A DNA stretch of 45,040 bases, taken from a virus. Each line of letters begins with the position of its first letter. Positions within the stretch are counted from its first letter, which is position 1. Positions 35,591-44,881 of this stretch are shown one piece after another. Position numbers and translations under genes: made by a program. The notes under the pieces are model-generated. The model was not told the DNA's origin. It did not search any database and was given only the letters and a program-made list of their open reading frames with translations. The stretch covers positions 1 through 45,040 of IMG/VR virus record IMGVR_UViG_3300030098_004351, one strand, 5' to 3'.

Positions 35591-35619
35591 TTGCCTTTTA
35601 CTATACAATCTCATATAAT
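35591..35619 (+). promoter_or_regulatory. Promoter behind the terminator
   Basis: TTGCCT (35591-35596), a 17-bp spacer, and TATAAT (35614-35619) point to the small DNA-binding genes at 35742 and 35892. The ~120-base leader (35626-35741) has a GTG frame of 39 codons at 35636, but its ribosome binding site is too close. I do not call it a gene. Confidence 0.6.
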
Positions 35620-35741
35620 CCTTTATAGATAGAGGGTGAACCCTACTCGCGCGAATCCTTGGGATAGCTACGGCTGTATCGCTAAGGACAATCCTGAAGT
35701 CCCAGTAGCCCTTTATCTGCCTTTAGATCTGAGAGGTAATG

Positions 35742-35882
35742 ATGGATATAACTAAATGGAAATCTGTTCTTGTGCCGATTGAGGTGTACGAAGAGATTAA
35801 ACGGCTCGCCAAAAGAGAAGGGCGAACAATAAGTGGTCAGCTCCGAATTATGTGGGAGCACTGGCGCAAAACTCATTCTTGA
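35742..35882 (+). CDS. Ribbon-helix-helix (Arc/CopG-like) regulator, 46 aa
   Basis: The 46-residue protein has WKSVLVPIEVYEEIKRLAKR, then EGRTISGQLRIMWEHWRK. This is one strand (KSVLVPI), a helix, a GRTISGQ turn and a second helix: the full ribbon-helix-helix plan. Such proteins bind operator DNA as dimers. The ribosome binding site GAGAGG is at 35731-35736. It is the first gene after the promoter at 35591 and could repress nearby phage promoters (inference). Length is short but complete for the family. Confidence 0.7.
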   Translation: MDITKWKSVLVPIEVYEEIKRLAKREGRTISGQLRIMWEHWRKTHS

Positions 35883-35891
35883 GAGGATATC

Positions 35892-36047
35892 ATGTTAAAA
35901 TCAATATTACATTTATTTTTTCCTCAGTGTTTCCCTAGAGAAGAAGAGGAAAAAACTGTTAAAAAACGTGGACGGCCACCAAAGAAAAAGGCTACCATAA
36001 AAGCTAAGAGACCTGTGGGCAGACCGAAGAAAAAGAAAAATGCTTAG
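35892..36047 (+). CDS. AT-hook-like basic protein, 51 aa
   Basis: The 51-residue protein has a hydrophobic N-terminus (LKSILHLFFPQCFP). Two AT-hook-like motifs follow: KKRGRPPKKK and RPVGRPKKKK, both with the GRP core that enters the minor groove of AT-rich DNA. The surrounding intergenic regions are AT-rich (TATATA promoters), giving likely targets. It lies 9 bases after the ribbon-helix-helix gene, and its 3' end overlaps the next ATG by 8 bases. Function as a nucleoid-like or regulatory protein is inferred. Confidence 0.65.
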   Translation: MLKSILHLFFPQCFPREEEEKTVKKRGRPPKKKATIKAKRPVGRPKKKKNA

Positions 36048-36255: not shown

Positions 36256-36346
36256 CGGGGAGCGAGATGAAGTGCCCCAAATGCAAGACCAAAAAGACAC
36301 AGGTGTACAACAGCCGACCTCACGCTGGGACGGTTCACCGCTTTAG
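36155..36346 (+). CDS. Overlapping zinc-ribbon-like frame, TTG start
   Basis: The frame has 63 residues. EECPRCLARIQPVSVHGHVQ, then CPVCRLYIVECCNGE has two CxxC pairs as in a zinc ribbon, and I recall the VHGHxQCPxC pattern in marine phage small proteins. The TTG at 36155 follows GGGAG (36144-36148) by six bases. It overlaps the end of the gene at 36040 by 101 bases and the gene at 36267 by 80 bases. The C-terminal ~20 residues may be fortuitous. Confidence 0.45.
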   Translation: MEECPRCLARIQPVSVHGHVQCPVCRLYIVECCNGERDEVPQMQDQKDTGVQQPTSRWDGSPL

Positions 36347-36563
36347 GTCTTGCGACTGCGGCCATAAATTTAAAACACATGAAGTTGTTTTAAATAAACC
36401 GGCAAAGGTTGCACGTTTCGGTGCGCGTCAATCTAAAAATGTTAAGAAAAAAGTAAAAAAACAAAGAATTAGTATAGATAAGCGTATGATTAACCTCATG
36501 TCCGATGATGAACTCATGGATGCTTTGGAAAGCGGTAGAATTACCCCCGATATGTTAGACTAA
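36267..36563 (+). CDS. NrdR-like zinc-ribbon protein
   Basis: The protein has 98 residues. The N-terminus MKCPKCKTKKTQVYNSRPHA, then RFRSCDCGHKFKTHE, has the zinc ribbon pattern of NrdR (CPxC...SR...R..C.CG..F.T.E). There is no ATP-cone domain. Instead a Lys-rich linker (KNVKKKVKKQRISIDKRMIN) and a short acidic helix follow. It may bind DNA as a regulator without nucleotide sensing. GGGGAG at 36257-36262 is a good ribosome binding site. Three Cys-rich small genes in a row are notable. Confidence 0.65.
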   Translation: MKCPKCKTKKTQVYNSRPHAGTVHRFRSCDCGHKFKTHEVVLNKPAKVARFGARQSKNVKKKVKKQRISIDKRMINLMSDDELMDALESGRITPDMLD

Positions 36564-36571
36564 AAAAACAC

Positions 36572-36600
36572 TTGCTTTTTACCTCATAATGTCTTATATA
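36572..36600 (+). promoter_or_regulatory. Promoter of the candidate small RNA
   Basis: TTGCTT (36572-36577), a 17-bp spacer, and TATATA (36595-36600). A transcript would start near 36607 and meet the terminator at 36644 with no gene in between. Confidence 0.65.
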
Positions 36601-36606
36601 GAAAAC

Positions 36607-36681
36607 ACAGCCTCTGCTAAGAATGGTTGTAATTCCCGTAGTAAAGCCCTCTGATGATCCAACCATCAGGGGGCTTTTTCT
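36607..36681 (+). ncRNA. Candidate small RNA with anti-leader seed
   Basis: The unit runs from a promoter (36572-36600) to an intrinsic terminator (36644-36681), about 75 nt, and holds no reading frame with a ribosome binding site. AATTCCCGTAGT (36631-36642), just 5' of the terminator stem, is the exact complement of ACTACGGGA found in leaders at 36729, 38840 and 40596. It is also the complement of ACGGGAATT at 43115. Upstream, ATGGTTG (36623-36629) can pair with CAACCAT (36660-36666), which would open the terminator. That gives an alternative reading as an attenuator. Regulation of translation by base pairing is inference. Confidence 0.55.
36644..36681 (+). terminator. Strong intrinsic terminator
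   Basis: AAAGCCCTCTGATG pairs with CATCAGGGGGCTTT (one G-U pair) around ATCCAAC and is followed by a T run. The 13-bp stem makes it one of the best terminators in the window. Confidence 0.9.
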
Positions 36682-36685
36682 TTGC

Positions 36686-36714
36686 TTGACATATGGGATG
36701 TTATAAGATATATA
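36686..36714 (+). promoter_or_regulatory. Promoter of the small-protein operon
   Basis: TTGACA (36686-36691), a 17-bp spacer, and TATATA (36709-36714). A start near 36721 leaves a ~22-base leader with AACTACGGGAG (36729-36739), which carries the ribosome binding site of the gene at 36743. Confidence 0.75.
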
Positions 36715-36742
36715 GAGAAGACAATCGTAACTACGGGAGATA

Positions 36743-36898
36743 ATGATGCCAAAATTTAAGGTTTACGTCACGGTGTACCACCGGATTGATGTCGAAGCTT
36801 CCAACAAGGAAGAGGCAGAAGAATTAGCTAAAAATGAAATATGGGACGATTACATTAAAGATGTGATTATTGATGTTGAGGGGGTTGAAGATGCCTAA
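36743..36898 (+). CDS. Small DpnD/PcfM-like protein 1, 51 aa
   Basis: The protein has 51 residues from ATG 36743, or 50 from ATG 36746. PKFKVYVTVYHRIDVEASNK, then EEAEELAKNEIWDDYI is a strand-strand-helix pattern like the DpnD/PcfM C-terminal fold. The next gene is clearly related (PKYKVTATMDVGYELIVEAD). Function is unknown. It is expressed from the promoter at 36686 with the ACTACGGGAG leader, so it is a predicted target of the small RNA just upstream. Confidence 0.65.
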   Translation: MMPKFKVYVTVYHRIDVEASNKEEAEELAKNEIWDDYIKDVIIDVEGVEDA

Positions 36899-38429: not shown

Positions 38430-38856
38430 AAAGTTATATAAGATTTTTCCCATATTATATAGTGGGGTGCGACAATCTGACACACGTATGTTGAGCTGAG
38501 AGACATTTTAAGCGTCCGCACATATACCGGCCTGTAACCAAGGCTGGAAGCTAAAAATGCGATGAGCACGGCCCGTGGTACTTACCCACCGGAAAACACC
38601 TAAAGCCACTGTATAGGCTTCTATGGGCGATTATGAGAGTTTAACTTAAATTAGGTTAATACTCATTATGGGTAATTTTATGGGAATAATTTTTTTCTTA
38701 TTTTGTCGCATATAGTATAAGATATGTCGCATATAGGATACAAGTATTCTAAGTATCTGTTATTATTATATAATAAGGGGATTACCTGTTGGAGGTGTCC
38801 CAATACCCAAAGTGGGTATCGCTATTTGAAACTGTTAATAACTACGGGAGGGTCTT
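38430..38856. other. 427-base intergenic region with repeated elements
   Basis: No convincing gene is seen. It is AT-rich at both ends. TGTCGCATATAG occurs twice (38705-38716 and 38726-38737), 21 bases apart. TATAAT is at 38769-38774 without a good -35. A hairpin ATACCCA-AAG-TGGGTAT (38803-38819) and the leader AACTACGGGAG (38840-38850) precede the gene at 38857. The GC-richer middle (38510-38610) could be part of a structured RNA but matches nothing I know. Confidence 0.5.
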
Positions 38857-39321
38857 ATGACCAATCTTCGCATTAAGCCTGTCAACCACGGTTCATCCAA
38901 GCGGGATAAAAACCGCTACTGTGGGCCAGCCGTAATCAGCTCCTTAACTGGTTACACTACAGCGGATGCAGCACGTTGCATTAGAGAGACCTCTAATCGG
39001 CGTTCGGTAACCGGAACTTCTTCTGAAGAAGTGTTACGTGTTTTACGTATGTACGGCCTTGGTTGTGTTGAACGAAAAGGTTCCTACTGGGACGTTAAAT
39101 TCAACCGCACTGACGGCGTCACCTTGGCGGGCTGGCTGAAGGCTTCTGTCAAAGACAGGAATGCCAAACGGGTGTTCCTCATCGTGGCAGGCTGGCATTG
39201 GCAATTAGTGCAGGGCAGACGTTATGTCTGTGGCCGCACTAAAGAGATTGTCAGCATCCGTGATAAACGGGTGAAGCGTAGAGCAAGAGTGGCAGAGGTT
39301 TACGAGCTACACGCAAAGTAA
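38857..39321 (+). CDS. C39/papain-like cysteine peptidase-like protein
   Basis: The protein has 154 residues. RYCGPAVISSLTGYTTADAA places Cys22 at a helix start, as in C39 peptidases (xCGPA). VAGWHWQLVQGRRYVCG puts His114 in the second catalytic position before strands. The middle helix GTSSEEVLRVLRMYGLG fits the same fold. The tail is very basic (RDKRVKRRARVAEV). Such proteins cleave leader peptides or form related thiol folds. The target here is unknown. It is read from the ACTACGGGAG leader and closed by a terminator. Confidence 0.55.
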   Translation: MTNLRIKPVNHGSSKRDKNRYCGPAVISSLTGYTTADAARCIRETSNRRSVTGTSSEEVLRVLRMYGLGCVERKGSYWDVKFNRTDGVTLAGWLKASVKDRNAKRVFLIVAGWHWQLVQGRRYVCGRTKEIVSIRDKRVKRRARVAEVYELHAK

Positions 39322-40567: not shown

Positions 40568-40578
40568 TCGCATATATA
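40550..40578 (+). promoter_or_regulatory. Promoter with 17-bp spacer
   Basis: TTGACC (40550-40555), a 17-bp spacer and TATATA (40573-40578). It contains the recurring TCGCATATA motif (40568-40576). The leader AACTACGGGAG (40596-40606) precedes ATG 40615. Confidence 0.7.
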
Positions 40579-40614
40579 TGGGGGTATCGTTCACAAACTA
40601 CGGGAGTTAAAACG

Positions 40615-41010
40615 ATGGATAAGCAAATCAACAACAGTATGGTGAGAGGGAGAGACACCTTCATCACCTCAGAGATAAATCGGCAAAAGTTTTATGATTC
40701 ACTTTGGCAACTCGTAAAGGATACCGGAATCGATTTTGAAGAAGTGTTAGATGATGGTGAAAATGGCGTGGTTGTCAGATTTACAGGAGTTAAACCGAAT
40801 CCTACGCAAAAAAAATATAGAGTAGCAATATGCATAGAAGAGGGCGTGGTTGTTCAAGTCGATGCGGTTAACGCTAAAGAAGCGGAAGCGGCGGCTTATG
40901 CGCTTGTCAATGAAATGGGCGGGACTGATTATCCAGAACCTGTTCAAAAGTTAGGGCCTCGAGAATTTTTCACGCAGGATGTTGAGGAGCTTGACAATGA
41001 GAACGACTGA
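40615..41010 (+). CDS. Accessory protein with C-terminal DpnD-like module
   Basis: The protein has 131 residues. The N-terminal half (ITSEINRQKFYDSLWQLVKD) is helical. Residues ~66-102 (KKYRVAICIEEGVVVQVDAV, then NAKEAEAAAYALVNEM) repeat the strand-strand-helix pattern of the small proteins at 36743 and 36891. The end is acidic. It is read from its own promoter and the ACTACGGGAG leader, and is thus a predicted target of the small RNA. Function is unknown. Confidence 0.6.
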   Translation: MDKQINNSMVRGRDTFITSEINRQKFYDSLWQLVKDTGIDFEEVLDDGENGVVVRFTGVKPNPTQKKYRVAICIEEGVVVQVDAVNAKEAEAAAYALVNEMGGTDYPEPVQKLGPREFFTQDVEELDNEND

Positions 41011-41632: not shown

Positions 41633-41728
41633 AACTTTTTCAAAAAATTACTTGCATTATATGCGAAATTGTGAGACAACACCTTTACGGGCTAATTCCA
41701 GCCCGCATTTTCTACGGGAGCATTTGAT

Positions 41729-43030
41729 ATGCAGTACACTATTAAAAACATAAACAACCTAATGCAGATTGACGGTTCGCCACAGAATGGCATTATGCAA
41801 GGTGAGGTAAACCCTTCAGGCCGACATACTGAACCGGCTGTAACAGGGGCTTATCAGACTAATGCGTTTCAACATGGTATCGGAAATAGCGCGGTATCGT
41901 CGCAATGGTTCAGCCGTCCGGATGACCAGAAGTTTTTGTCTTTGGATGAAATGCTAGCCTTTAAAAAGCAGGACGCCCGCTCTATGAACAGCCGGATTGT
42001 CAACACTCATAAAATGAACATTGTTGGCAAGCTAGATGAAGAGAACCCCAGTCGCGGGGATATCTTTGTTGAGTATACCGATGAAGAGGGGCATGAGGCT
42101 TTCAATGCGCCGACAAATTGGTCTTTTGGTCAGCTATCCCAGTTGGCCGGTGCGCCTGCCGGTTATCTTAAAGACTTGCCCGCACCTATTGCGGCGGACG
42201 CCCTGCAATGGGGCTTGCGTTATAACCGGTCGCGTGAACTGGTAAAGGCTTATGGACATGCAACTGAAGGCGGGGATCTGCGGGCGGCAACCGGTGCAGA
42301 CTATGGCCGGATTTATGATTTTGAAATCATCGAAGCGGTGAAGAAGTTTGCCGACCCTGACCGCTGGAAGATTCCGGGCATGATGACTGGCCAAAAAGAA
42401 GGCCGGGCTATTTATGACCCGTTTGTTCCTGTAACCAAAGATACGACCACTTTGTTTGCTTCTGACCGTGATGTCTTTTTGTTTCTGGTTGACGACACGC
42501 ACCCGATTGAAGTTGGCAAACTTGCTAATGGTGACCCTGATTTAATGTTTAGGGGCTTTTATGCATGGAATAGTGAAACCGGCTCTAAGACTGCCGGAAT
42601 TGCGGCCATGTATTTGCGCGGCGTTTGCATGAACCGCAATCTTTGGGGCGTGGAAAATTTTCAAGAAATTAAAATCCGCCATACCAAGTTTGCACCTGAC
42701 CGTTTCGCATATGAGGCCGCGCCAGCTCTGCAATCATTCGCGCATGGAGCAACCGCAAATTTTCTGGACGGCGTACAGGCCGCGCAGAATGCAGTCGTTG
42801 CACGTACCGATGAAGACCGGCTCGACTTTCTGACCAAGCGGGCAGGGCTTAGCCAGCGCATGGCCAAGGCCGCCGCCGCCCGTCACTTGCAGGAAGAAGA
42901 CAAGCCTGTCCGGTCAGTCTGGGATGCGGCGCAGGCAATCACCGCGCTTGCCCGCGATATTCCGCATCAGGACAACCGCATTGACTTAGAGCGCAAAGCA
43001 GGCGCATTGTTGGATAAGGTGGCCGCATAA
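41729..43030 (+). CDS. DUF932 phage/plasmid protein
   Basis: The protein has 433 residues. The C-terminal two thirds has FRGFYAWNSETGSKTAGIAA, then YLRGVCMNRNLWGVENFQEI and KIRHTKFAPDRF. This is the characteristic core of DUF932 (TIGR03299-type) proteins carried by phages and plasmids. Their function is unknown; links to mobile elements and defence islands are common. The leader TCTACGGGAG (41711-41720) matches the other regulated genes. Base composition is clearly GC-richer than the structural genes, suggesting later acquisition. Confidence 0.75.
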   Translation: MQYTIKNINNLMQIDGSPQNGIMQGEVNPSGRHTEPAVTGAYQTNAFQHGIGNSAVSSQWFSRPDDQKFLSLDEMLAFKKQDARSMNSRIVNTHKMNIVGKLDEENPSRGDIFVEYTDEEGHEAFNAPTNWSFGQLSQLAGAPAGYLKDLPAPIAADALQWGLRYNRSRELVKAYGHATEGGDLRAATGADYGRIYDFEIIEAVKKFADPDRWKIPGMMTGQKEGRAIYDPFVPVTKDTTTLFASDRDVFLFLVDDTHPIEVGKLANGDPDLMFRGFYAWNSETGSKTAGIAAMYLRGVCMNRNLWGVENFQEIKIRHTKFAPDRFAYEAAPALQSFAHGATANFLDGVQAAQNAVVARTDEDRLDFLTKRAGLSQRMAKAAAARHLQEEDKPVRSVWDAAQAITALARDIPHQDNRIDLERKAGALLDKVAA

Positions 43031-43094: not shown

Positions 43095-43129
43095 GGATAA
43101 ATCGCATAACTTTAACGGGAATTAAAACC

Positions 43130-43834
43130 ATGCTGAAAACCACCGCACTATCAAGAGCAAACAAGACCGCCGGTTGCGCTGTAACATACCGCGCCGGAAC
43201 AGCCGACAAATTCGCGACTTGCCCCGCTGATTGTAAATTGAACCCTAGCGGGCGGGGTTGTTCTGCCGGTAAAATTGATGTTGATTATCTGGACATACTG
43301 GCCGACGCCGTACCCCGTCGCGGCGTGTCTTTTACTTATTCACATTTTGACCCGTTATTCTGGCAGCATAAACTGGCCGCCGGTAAGACTGTTATAAACT
43401 ACAGCGCGGATAATTTAGATCACGCATATAATGCTTACAATTATGGCGCGCCGGTTGTCACTGTCACCCCCGAAAATTTCTTTTCAAATGGTAAATGGTC
43501 TGCCCCGCATGGCCTGCGACTGGTGCGCTGCCCCGCCGAATATAACAGCGCGGTAACGTGCAGCAATTGTGGCAACGGCCTGCCCCTATGCGCCAGACCA
43601 GACCGCGACTATATAATCACCTTTACTGCTCACGGGGCAGGCAAAAAGAAAATAAACAACGATGAGCGCGGCGGCTGTTACGCAGACGGCGGCAATGTCA
43701 ATATTCACTGGCAGAACACCGCTAAACAGAAACAGAAAGAGACCGACGGCGAAAGATTAAAAGCTTTTGTCAAAACCCTACCGACGGGCACTATTTTGCG
43801 TCACCATGTCGCCGGTGATATCGGCAAGGAATAA
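43130..43834 (+). CDS. DUF7227-like Cys-rich protein
   Basis: The protein has 234 residues. CPADCKLNPSGRGC is followed by DYLDILADAVPRRGVSFTYS, then HFDPLFWQHKLAAGKTVINY. A Cys cluster CPAEYNSAVTCSNCGNGLPL, then CARPDRDYIITFTAHG and ILRHHVAGDIG follow. This matches a conserved phage/plasmid family I know as DUF7227. The clustered Cys residues may bind metal. Function is unknown. ATG 43130 follows GGGAATTAAAACC, a leader repeated at the gene at 43972. Confidence 0.7.
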   Translation: MLKTTALSRANKTAGCAVTYRAGTADKFATCPADCKLNPSGRGCSAGKIDVDYLDILADAVPRRGVSFTYSHFDPLFWQHKLAAGKTVINYSADNLDHAYNAYNYGAPVVTVTPENFFSNGKWSAPHGLRLVRCPAEYNSAVTCSNCGNGLPLCARPDRDYIITFTAHGAGKKKINNDERGGCYADGGNVNIHWQNTAKQKQKETDGERLKAFVKTLPTGTILRHHVAGDIGKE

Positions 43835-43887: not shown

Positions 43888-43916
43888 TTTACATTCATAT
43901 AATATTATCGCATATT
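43888..43916 (+). promoter_or_regulatory. Weaker promoter of the same type
   Basis: TTTACA (43888-43893), a 17-bp spacer, and CATATT (43911-43916), including TCGCATATT. It points to the gene at 43972. Confidence 0.5.
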
Positions 43917-43971
43917 ATCCTAAGGCGGCCGGATAGGCTGGCCGCCGGTTTTTAAAAAGGGAATTAAAACC

Positions 43972-44502: not shown

Positions 44503-44881
44503 TGCCTGCTCACTGGCCTTTAAATCGCGTTTAATGACAGTTAATCATGCCGCGGCCCGTCGCCCGCTCACATTGTTAAACGTACCGCGGCCCGCTAGCT
44601 GCTGGCCGCCGGTTAACTTTTTCCGAATATTATCCGCTTTTTAACCCTGCGATTTTACCGGCCGCCGGAGCTGGCCGCCGTCATTTAACTTTTTCCCAAT
44701 TTTACCGGATTTTTGCCCGGCGTTTGCTGGCCGCCGGTTAACTTTTCAGGATTCCGGTATCGGGTCAAAAAACCGCAGAAAACCGCCAAAAATCCGCGCT
44801 CCGCGCGCCGCCGCCCACGCGTTTGCATACGCGAGCAAGAGCCATGTTTCTCTCAAATAATTATGTGAAAAACAATATGAA
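44503..44881. repeat. Gene-free region with GCTGGCCGCCGG repeats
   Basis: No gene is seen here. GCTGGCCGCCG followed by TTAACTTTT occurs at 44601, 44670 (slightly changed) and 44726. A related copy, GCTGGCCGCCGGTTTTT, is at 43937. CCGCGGCCCG occurs at 44550 and 44585. The repeats lead into the perfect parS site, so this may be a partition or replication region (inference). Confidence 0.7.

Follow-up and report, generated by a model that had tools for sequence, protein, structure and literature searches.

The c4 antisense RNA of phages P1 and P7 pairs around the ribosome-binding site of a phage mRNA, the ant mRNA, and serves in temperate-phage immunity, as described in PMC12197685. Three further phage RNAs, P22 sar, lambda OOP and aQ, are each antisense to one phage gene and repress it by pairing (PMC12197685). 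VpdS of phage VP882 acts through Hfq on the levels of both host and phage RNAs, and PreS of lambda targets the host dnaN (PMC12197685). In bacteria, the single RNA GcvB acts on many translation-initiation regions (PMC3879156). The phage small RNAs in the literature that we searched were described in phages with cultured hosts, and most have one phage gene or host genes as their target.

We analysed a viral record of 45,040 nucleotides (IMG/VR record IMGVR_UViG_3300030098_004351, hereafter the window). Positions 36607-36681 very likely encode a trans-acting phage small RNA, whose seed would pair with leaders shared by an accessory regulon and repress it; we give this reading a probability of roughly 0.83. 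Similar to c4, as portrayed in PMC12197685, this would be a phage-encoded RNA pairing around a phage-mRNA ribosome-binding site, but here the RNA has a separate gene and matches, in each phage, four to seven or more gene leaders. Among the genes looked at in the records with the small RNA, no lysogeny gene was recognised. VpdS and PreS are also phage-encoded trans-acting sRNAs, yet in the account of PMC12197685 neither is described with a single cognate leader that recurs on many phage genes. With the GcvB type of bacterial multi-target sRNAs, as presented in PMC3879156, the locus shares one conserved seed for many translation-initiation regions, and differs in being virus-encoded and in having targets whose near-identical leader element changes with the seed. 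Unlike P22 sar, lambda OOP and aQ, as outlined in PMC12197685, it would regulate dispersed leaders in trans; the small RNA and its targets share a strand and lie up to about 6.5 kb apart, so that it does not belong to the cis-antisense phage RNAs. Our literature search found no counterpart of a shared-leader phage RNA, and is limited evidence of novelty because it covered subscription journals poorly.

The sequence-only reading had proposed that a promoter and a strong terminator frame about 75 nt without a gene, and the coordinates agree with it:

36572..36600, plus strand: predicted small-RNA promoter TTGCTT-17-TATATA, read in the sequence (TTGCTT 36572-36577, 17-nt spacer, TATATA 36595-36600)
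36607..36681, plus strand: predicted phage small RNA of about 75 nt, with promoter and terminator, kept in relatives
36607..36630, plus strand: 5′ hairpin abutting the seed, by fold prediction; shape kept and sequence varying across clades
36631..36642, plus strand: single-stranded seed AAUUCCCGUAGU (AATTCCCGTAGT at 36631-36642), predicted unpaired between the 5′ hairpin and the terminator
36643..36681, plus strand: intrinsic terminator, a 14-pair stem (36643-36677) and then a T-run

The 5′ end of the small RNA was estimated from the promoter position, and we infer from this arrangement that the unit is transcribed. Its predicted fold has an MFE of -30.8, compared with -16.3 ± 2.8 in shuffles (z -5.3). 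The U-rich tail of the terminator is the only Hfq-relevant feature visible in its sequence. Thus, the locus has the predicted makeup of a trans-acting base-pairing sRNA, with its own promoter and intrinsic terminator, and an accessible seed of limited complementarity to distant mRNAs. On the plus strand, no gene was recognised between 36564 and 36742. A 41-aa open reading frame on the minus strand (36541-36666) overlaps the locus; a minus-strand gene having the seed as its leader was ruled out, as the sequence holds no suitably placed open frame. An INPHARED search at near identity gave no match, and in Rfam 15 no family reached its gathering threshold, the best being His_leader with 29.5 bits against 49.

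This sub-threshold match, together with the order of a promoter and then a terminator ahead of the next gene, would also suit a transcription attenuator, or simply a terminator at the end of an operon whose upstream promoter is spurious. We hold this to be highly improbable. The conserved element is the seed, which is complementary to distant leaders, and a separate TTGACA-type promoter follows 3′ of the terminator, both in the window and in many homologues, which led us to discard the attenuator.

The leaders that the predicted small RNA would pair with, and the genes behind them, are the following, with ranks by accessible-hybrid energy among 68 genes:

36730..36739, plus strand: target leader ACTACGGGAG of gene 36743, rank 4
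36743..36898, plus strand: target gene 36743, 51 aa, no family
38841..38850, plus strand: target leader ACTACGGGAG of gene 38857, rank 6
38857..39321, plus strand: target gene 38857, 154 aa, no family
40597..40606, plus strand: target leader ACTACGGGAG of gene 40615, rank 2
40615..41010, plus strand: target gene 40615, 131 aa, no family
41712..41720, plus strand: target leader CTACGGGAG of gene 41729, rank 1
41729..43030, plus strand: target gene 41729, phrog_1362, weakly DUF932-like (22.2 bits, cut-off 23), with orthologous leaders in other clades
43115..43123, plus strand: target leader ACGGGAATT of gene 43130, rank 3
43130..43834, plus strand: target gene 43130, DUF7227, with orthologous leaders in other clades
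43959..43965, plus strand: weak leader match GGGAATT (7 nt) of gene 43972, rank 13

The only three copies of AACTACGGGAG in the 45 kb (at 36729, 38840 and 40596) are all on the plus strand, each just 5′ of a start codon, and the reversed-pattern control had 0 matches in the record. For CTACGGGAG with at most one mismatch, the record holds 15 matches, compared with 5.5 ± 2.4 in shuffles, and none of 100 shuffles had as many. With CTACGGGAG before 41729, ACGGGAATT before 43130 and GGGAATT before 43972, the complement of the seed does combine both leader types, as had been proposed. The match was also rightly placed at the ribosome-binding sites, since the leader element overlaps with the Shine-Dalgarno sequence or lies immediately 5′ of it. 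Against the seed region, the six leaders reached a mean duplex energy of -19.5, while shuffled seeds reached -8.7 ± 1.25 (0 of 300 as good). Energy ranking, which the sequence-only reading had suggested as a check, placed five of its six leaders within the top six of the 68 genes. The sixth did not hold up: taken alone, 43972 is a weak target, not distinguishable from background.

The small RNA would consist of a 5′ hairpin, a single-stranded seed and the terminator, and the seed would base-pair in trans with the leader element (A)CTACGGGAG at or directly before the Shine-Dalgarno sequence of several phage genes, apparently with promoters of their own. Most likely, this pairing would block ribosome binding, and the accessory regulon would be shut off or pulse-limited as the RNA accumulates. 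In this way, a single RNA probably turns off, or adjusts, an entire block of phage genes. Repression of initiation would be the simplest effect, because the pairing covers the Shine-Dalgarno sequence in most clades. The RNA could, conversely, activate or protect the target mRNAs by opening leader structure or blocking decay. Such a role would be in line with the hairpins that several leaders have between promoter and ribosome-binding site (41729, 43972), and with the pairing in clade B, which sits just upstream of the Shine-Dalgarno sequence. In clades A and D, however, the seed pairing covers the Shine-Dalgarno sequence itself. Furthermore, the ribosome-binding regions of the window leaders are already 42-71% unpaired in prediction, so there is no strong inhibitory structure to open, and we consider activation unlikely.

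With the shared leader, the regulon can be predicted from its sequence alone, and many uncharacterised phage genes are brought together in one group. Across 124 records (1.41 Mb), ribosome-binding zones make up 9.5% of the plus strand positions. The exact 9-nt complement of a record's own seed was found 68 times in these zones and 12 times elsewhere on both strands (10 on the plus and 2 on the minus strand, the small-RNA gene itself excluded). Its spacing to the ATG peaked at 7 nt. Part of this leader conservation is expected anyway, because the leaders overlap the Shine-Dalgarno sequence. Among 26 representatives, 37 leaders had at least 9 nt of complementarity to their own core; shuffled cores gave 1.2 such leaders on average and never more than 4. 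Swapping the RNA between records lowered the match in an exact-match double-centred test (z 3.5-4.1, at most 1 of 5000 permutations, values that are not independent probabilities, the records being related). A swap test on energy alone gave a weak result (p 0.04), as foreign seeds rich in GC reach good scores wherever they are placed; base composition spoiled this version, and it was replaced by the exact-match test. Single mismatches compatible with G-U pairing were not clearly enriched in leaders (43 of 85, against 17 of 47 in controls), and were dropped, as not significant, from the argument for RNA over DNA pairing.

With the protein encoded just upstream of the small RNA as query, six relatives were retrieved. 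Each has one TCCCGTAG copy before a terminator, on the strand complementary to its own CTACGGGA leaders. A 9.3 kb fragment (L007/G004) has CTACGGGA ten times on the opposite strand, and 7 of these sites read ACTACGGGAG shortly before an ATG. Polymerase searches gave about 180 related loci (181 counted), and a strict call recognised the small-RNA gene in 124 of the 181. Of the 96 related IMG/VR contigs that extend 2.6 kb or more downstream of DNA polymerase A, at least 79 have the gene there, and at least 7 of the 17 contigs missed by the call do show it (L236, L253, L257, L258, L259, L297, L300). The loci hold 72 distinct small-RNA sequences, and 54 of the 72 distinct homologous loci have a sigma70-like promoter upstream. 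The CGTAG core of the seed is nearly invariant in 34 aligned homologues. In the 5′ part of the RNA (mean MFE -6.1, compared with -2.5 shuffled), the place and shape of the hairpin are kept as the sequence changes. The predicted RNA can be as short as about 50 nt, where the promoter is just 8 nt from the seed (L181/L194/L196/L197), and in L181/L197 scarcely more than seed and terminator is left. In three RNA loci downstream of the polymerase (L231, L310, L320), the seed lies in a small hairpin loop, GTGC-TCCGTAG-GCAC, rather than in a linker.

The phages that carry the RNA gene form a large group, uncultured and for the most part marine. Related polymerases were also found in three MAG contigs, binned as Verrucomicrobiales, Rhodobacteraceae and Maricaulis. 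In the stretches examined of the cultured relatives HTVC023P, HTVC027P, DSL-LC04 and 023Pt_psg01 (49-57% polymerase identity), the small RNA was not found. Seed-pattern matches in nine viral contigs (L010-L012, L343, L345, L346, L348, L353, L359) stand outside a terminator context and look like chance.

Seed and leaders change together in related phages, in the pairs TCCCGTAG/CTACGGGA, CTCCGTAG/CTACGGAG, TCCCGTAATAG/CTATTACGGGA and CTTCGTAG/CTACGAAG. In the midpoint-rooted polymerase tree, a deep, well supported split parts TCCCGTAG and its derivatives from CTCCGTAG. Across this split, the change from TCCC to CTCC seeds goes with that from CTACGGGA to CTACGGAG leaders. The predicted regulon-wide RNA switch of these uncultured phages would thus be old enough to span the split. 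In L174/L347, the seed TCCCGTAATAG goes with CTATTACGGGA, while the leader of the same downstream context elsewhere is CAACTACGGGA; their leader reads TCTATTACGGGAG, and its counterpart with the same flanks in G004/G005 reads ATATCAACTACGGGAG. In L236/L349/L358, which have the seed CTTCGTAG, a gene of about 370 aa has CTACGAAG in its leader, and the other leaders of this group keep CTACGGAG, still able to pair via G-U. In L330, the complementarity of seed and leader reaches 16 nt.

The correspondence has exceptions. L347 retains one CTACGGGA leader alongside its TCCCGTAATAG seed; leaders that lag behind the seed are to be expected if the leaders change one by one. Few leaders of clade B contain CTACGGGA, and the pairing has moved to the 3′ side of the seed, with AACATAACTA leaders and GTTATGTT seeds in L200/L208, and CTCATAACTAC in L210. 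The coevolution of seed and target is partial here, and the pairing partly specific, as CACTAACTA is found in L200/L208 too. For the seeds CTCTGTAG and CTCCGTTG, no matching leaders were found on the short contigs examined. Relatives that keep the leader and lack the seed, which would have spoken against the small RNA, were not seen as a pattern, and covariation, the other check suggested beforehand, came out in its favour. These natural compensatory changes make the base-pairing directly testable.

The seed contains CUCC, which resembles the anti-Shine-Dalgarno core. It could therefore act broadly as an anti-Shine-Dalgarno-like RNA, with host mRNAs as its main targets, or as a host-RNA sponge, the phage leaders matching as strong ribosome-binding sites. 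Other phage sRNAs do act on host genes (VpdS and PreS, in the account of PMC12197685). A general RNA of this type would not explain a complementarity that runs over 9-16 nt, past the Shine-Dalgarno sequence, and that changes with the seed, and we regard it as somewhat less probable still than activation. Additional effects on the host, alongside the phage leaders, may nevertheless occur.

A second element links the small RNA and its predicted targets. The half-site TATGSGA/TCSCATA lies upstream of 54 of 78 seed-matching leaders (69%), compared with 417 of 8980 other ORF starts (4.6%). It is found at 65 of 79 small-RNA promoters; 32 of these carry at least two half-sites, in many cases arranged as the dyad TATGCGATTAAGTGTTGCTTATCCCATA. 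In the window, all six named leaders are preceded by a half-site, and the small-RNA promoter itself has only a degenerate CTCATA. A gene for a possible regulator lies nearby:

35739..35882, plus strand: ribbon-helix-helix (RHH) gene (RHH_5, CopG/Arc-like), candidate operator-binding regulator, Pfam RHH_5 E 5.6e-7
36692..36698, plus strand: half-site TATGGGA upstream of 36743
38706..38733, plus strand: two half-sites TCGCATA upstream of 38857 (starts 38706, 38727)
40568..40574, plus strand: half-site TCGCATA upstream of 40615
41660..41666, plus strand: half-site TATGCGA upstream of 41729
43102..43108, plus strand: half-site TCGCATA upstream of 43130
43908..43914, plus strand: half-site TCGCATA upstream of 43972

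The RHH_5 assignment exceeds the Pfam cut-off (29.6 bits, cut-off 26), and 121 of 122 small-RNA-bearing records have an RHH homologue downstream of the polymerase. Adjacency and co-occurrence suggest that this conserved, upstream-encoded protein possibly binds the half-site. If so, the RNA and its targets would be co-regulated, the RNA would belong to a feed-forward loop that produces the target proteins in a pulse, and one block of phage genes would be controlled both in transcription and in translation. That a virus encodes such a two-layer regulon, with an RHH protein on an operator that the promoters share and a small RNA on a shared ribosome-binding-site leader of the same dispersed genes, and with seed and leader coevolving across a marine phage lineage, is a proposal to which we give even odds on sequence grounds.

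A half-site common to the targets and the RNA gene makes it likely that a DNA regulator is present too, and raises the question of whether CTACGGGAG is itself a protein-bound DNA element at promoters, with the RNA-gene copy merely an inverted operator. This seems to us very doubtful. The spacing of CTACGGGAG to the start codon is maintained (peak 7 nt), whereas its distance to the promoter varies with the hairpins in between; the RNA-gene copy stands just before the terminator, on the strand complementary to the leaders; and an operator role is better fitted by the separate half-site.

Several further features were observed in the window. The G+C-rich hairpins between promoter and ribosome-binding site of target leaders, at 41688-41705 and 43924-43946, are also found in L007/G004, and are possibly transcript stabilisers. 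The RHH gene is preceded by a leader of about 110 nt (35610-35738), possibly structured, after a promoter-like TTGCCT-17-TATAAT; this long 5′ leader could be another RNA-level control. Beside the RHH gene, 35892-36047 encodes a 51-aa protein with AT-hook motifs (Pfam PF02178), a small DNA-binding candidate. Directly upstream of the small RNA, 36267-36563 encodes a 98-aa protein with an NrdR-like zinc ribbon (Pfam PF22811, E 1.6e-10). Near the end of the record, the noncoding stretch 44595-44750 contains repeated GCTGGCCGCCGGTTAACTTTT elements, which resemble terminator-like or origin-like repeats.
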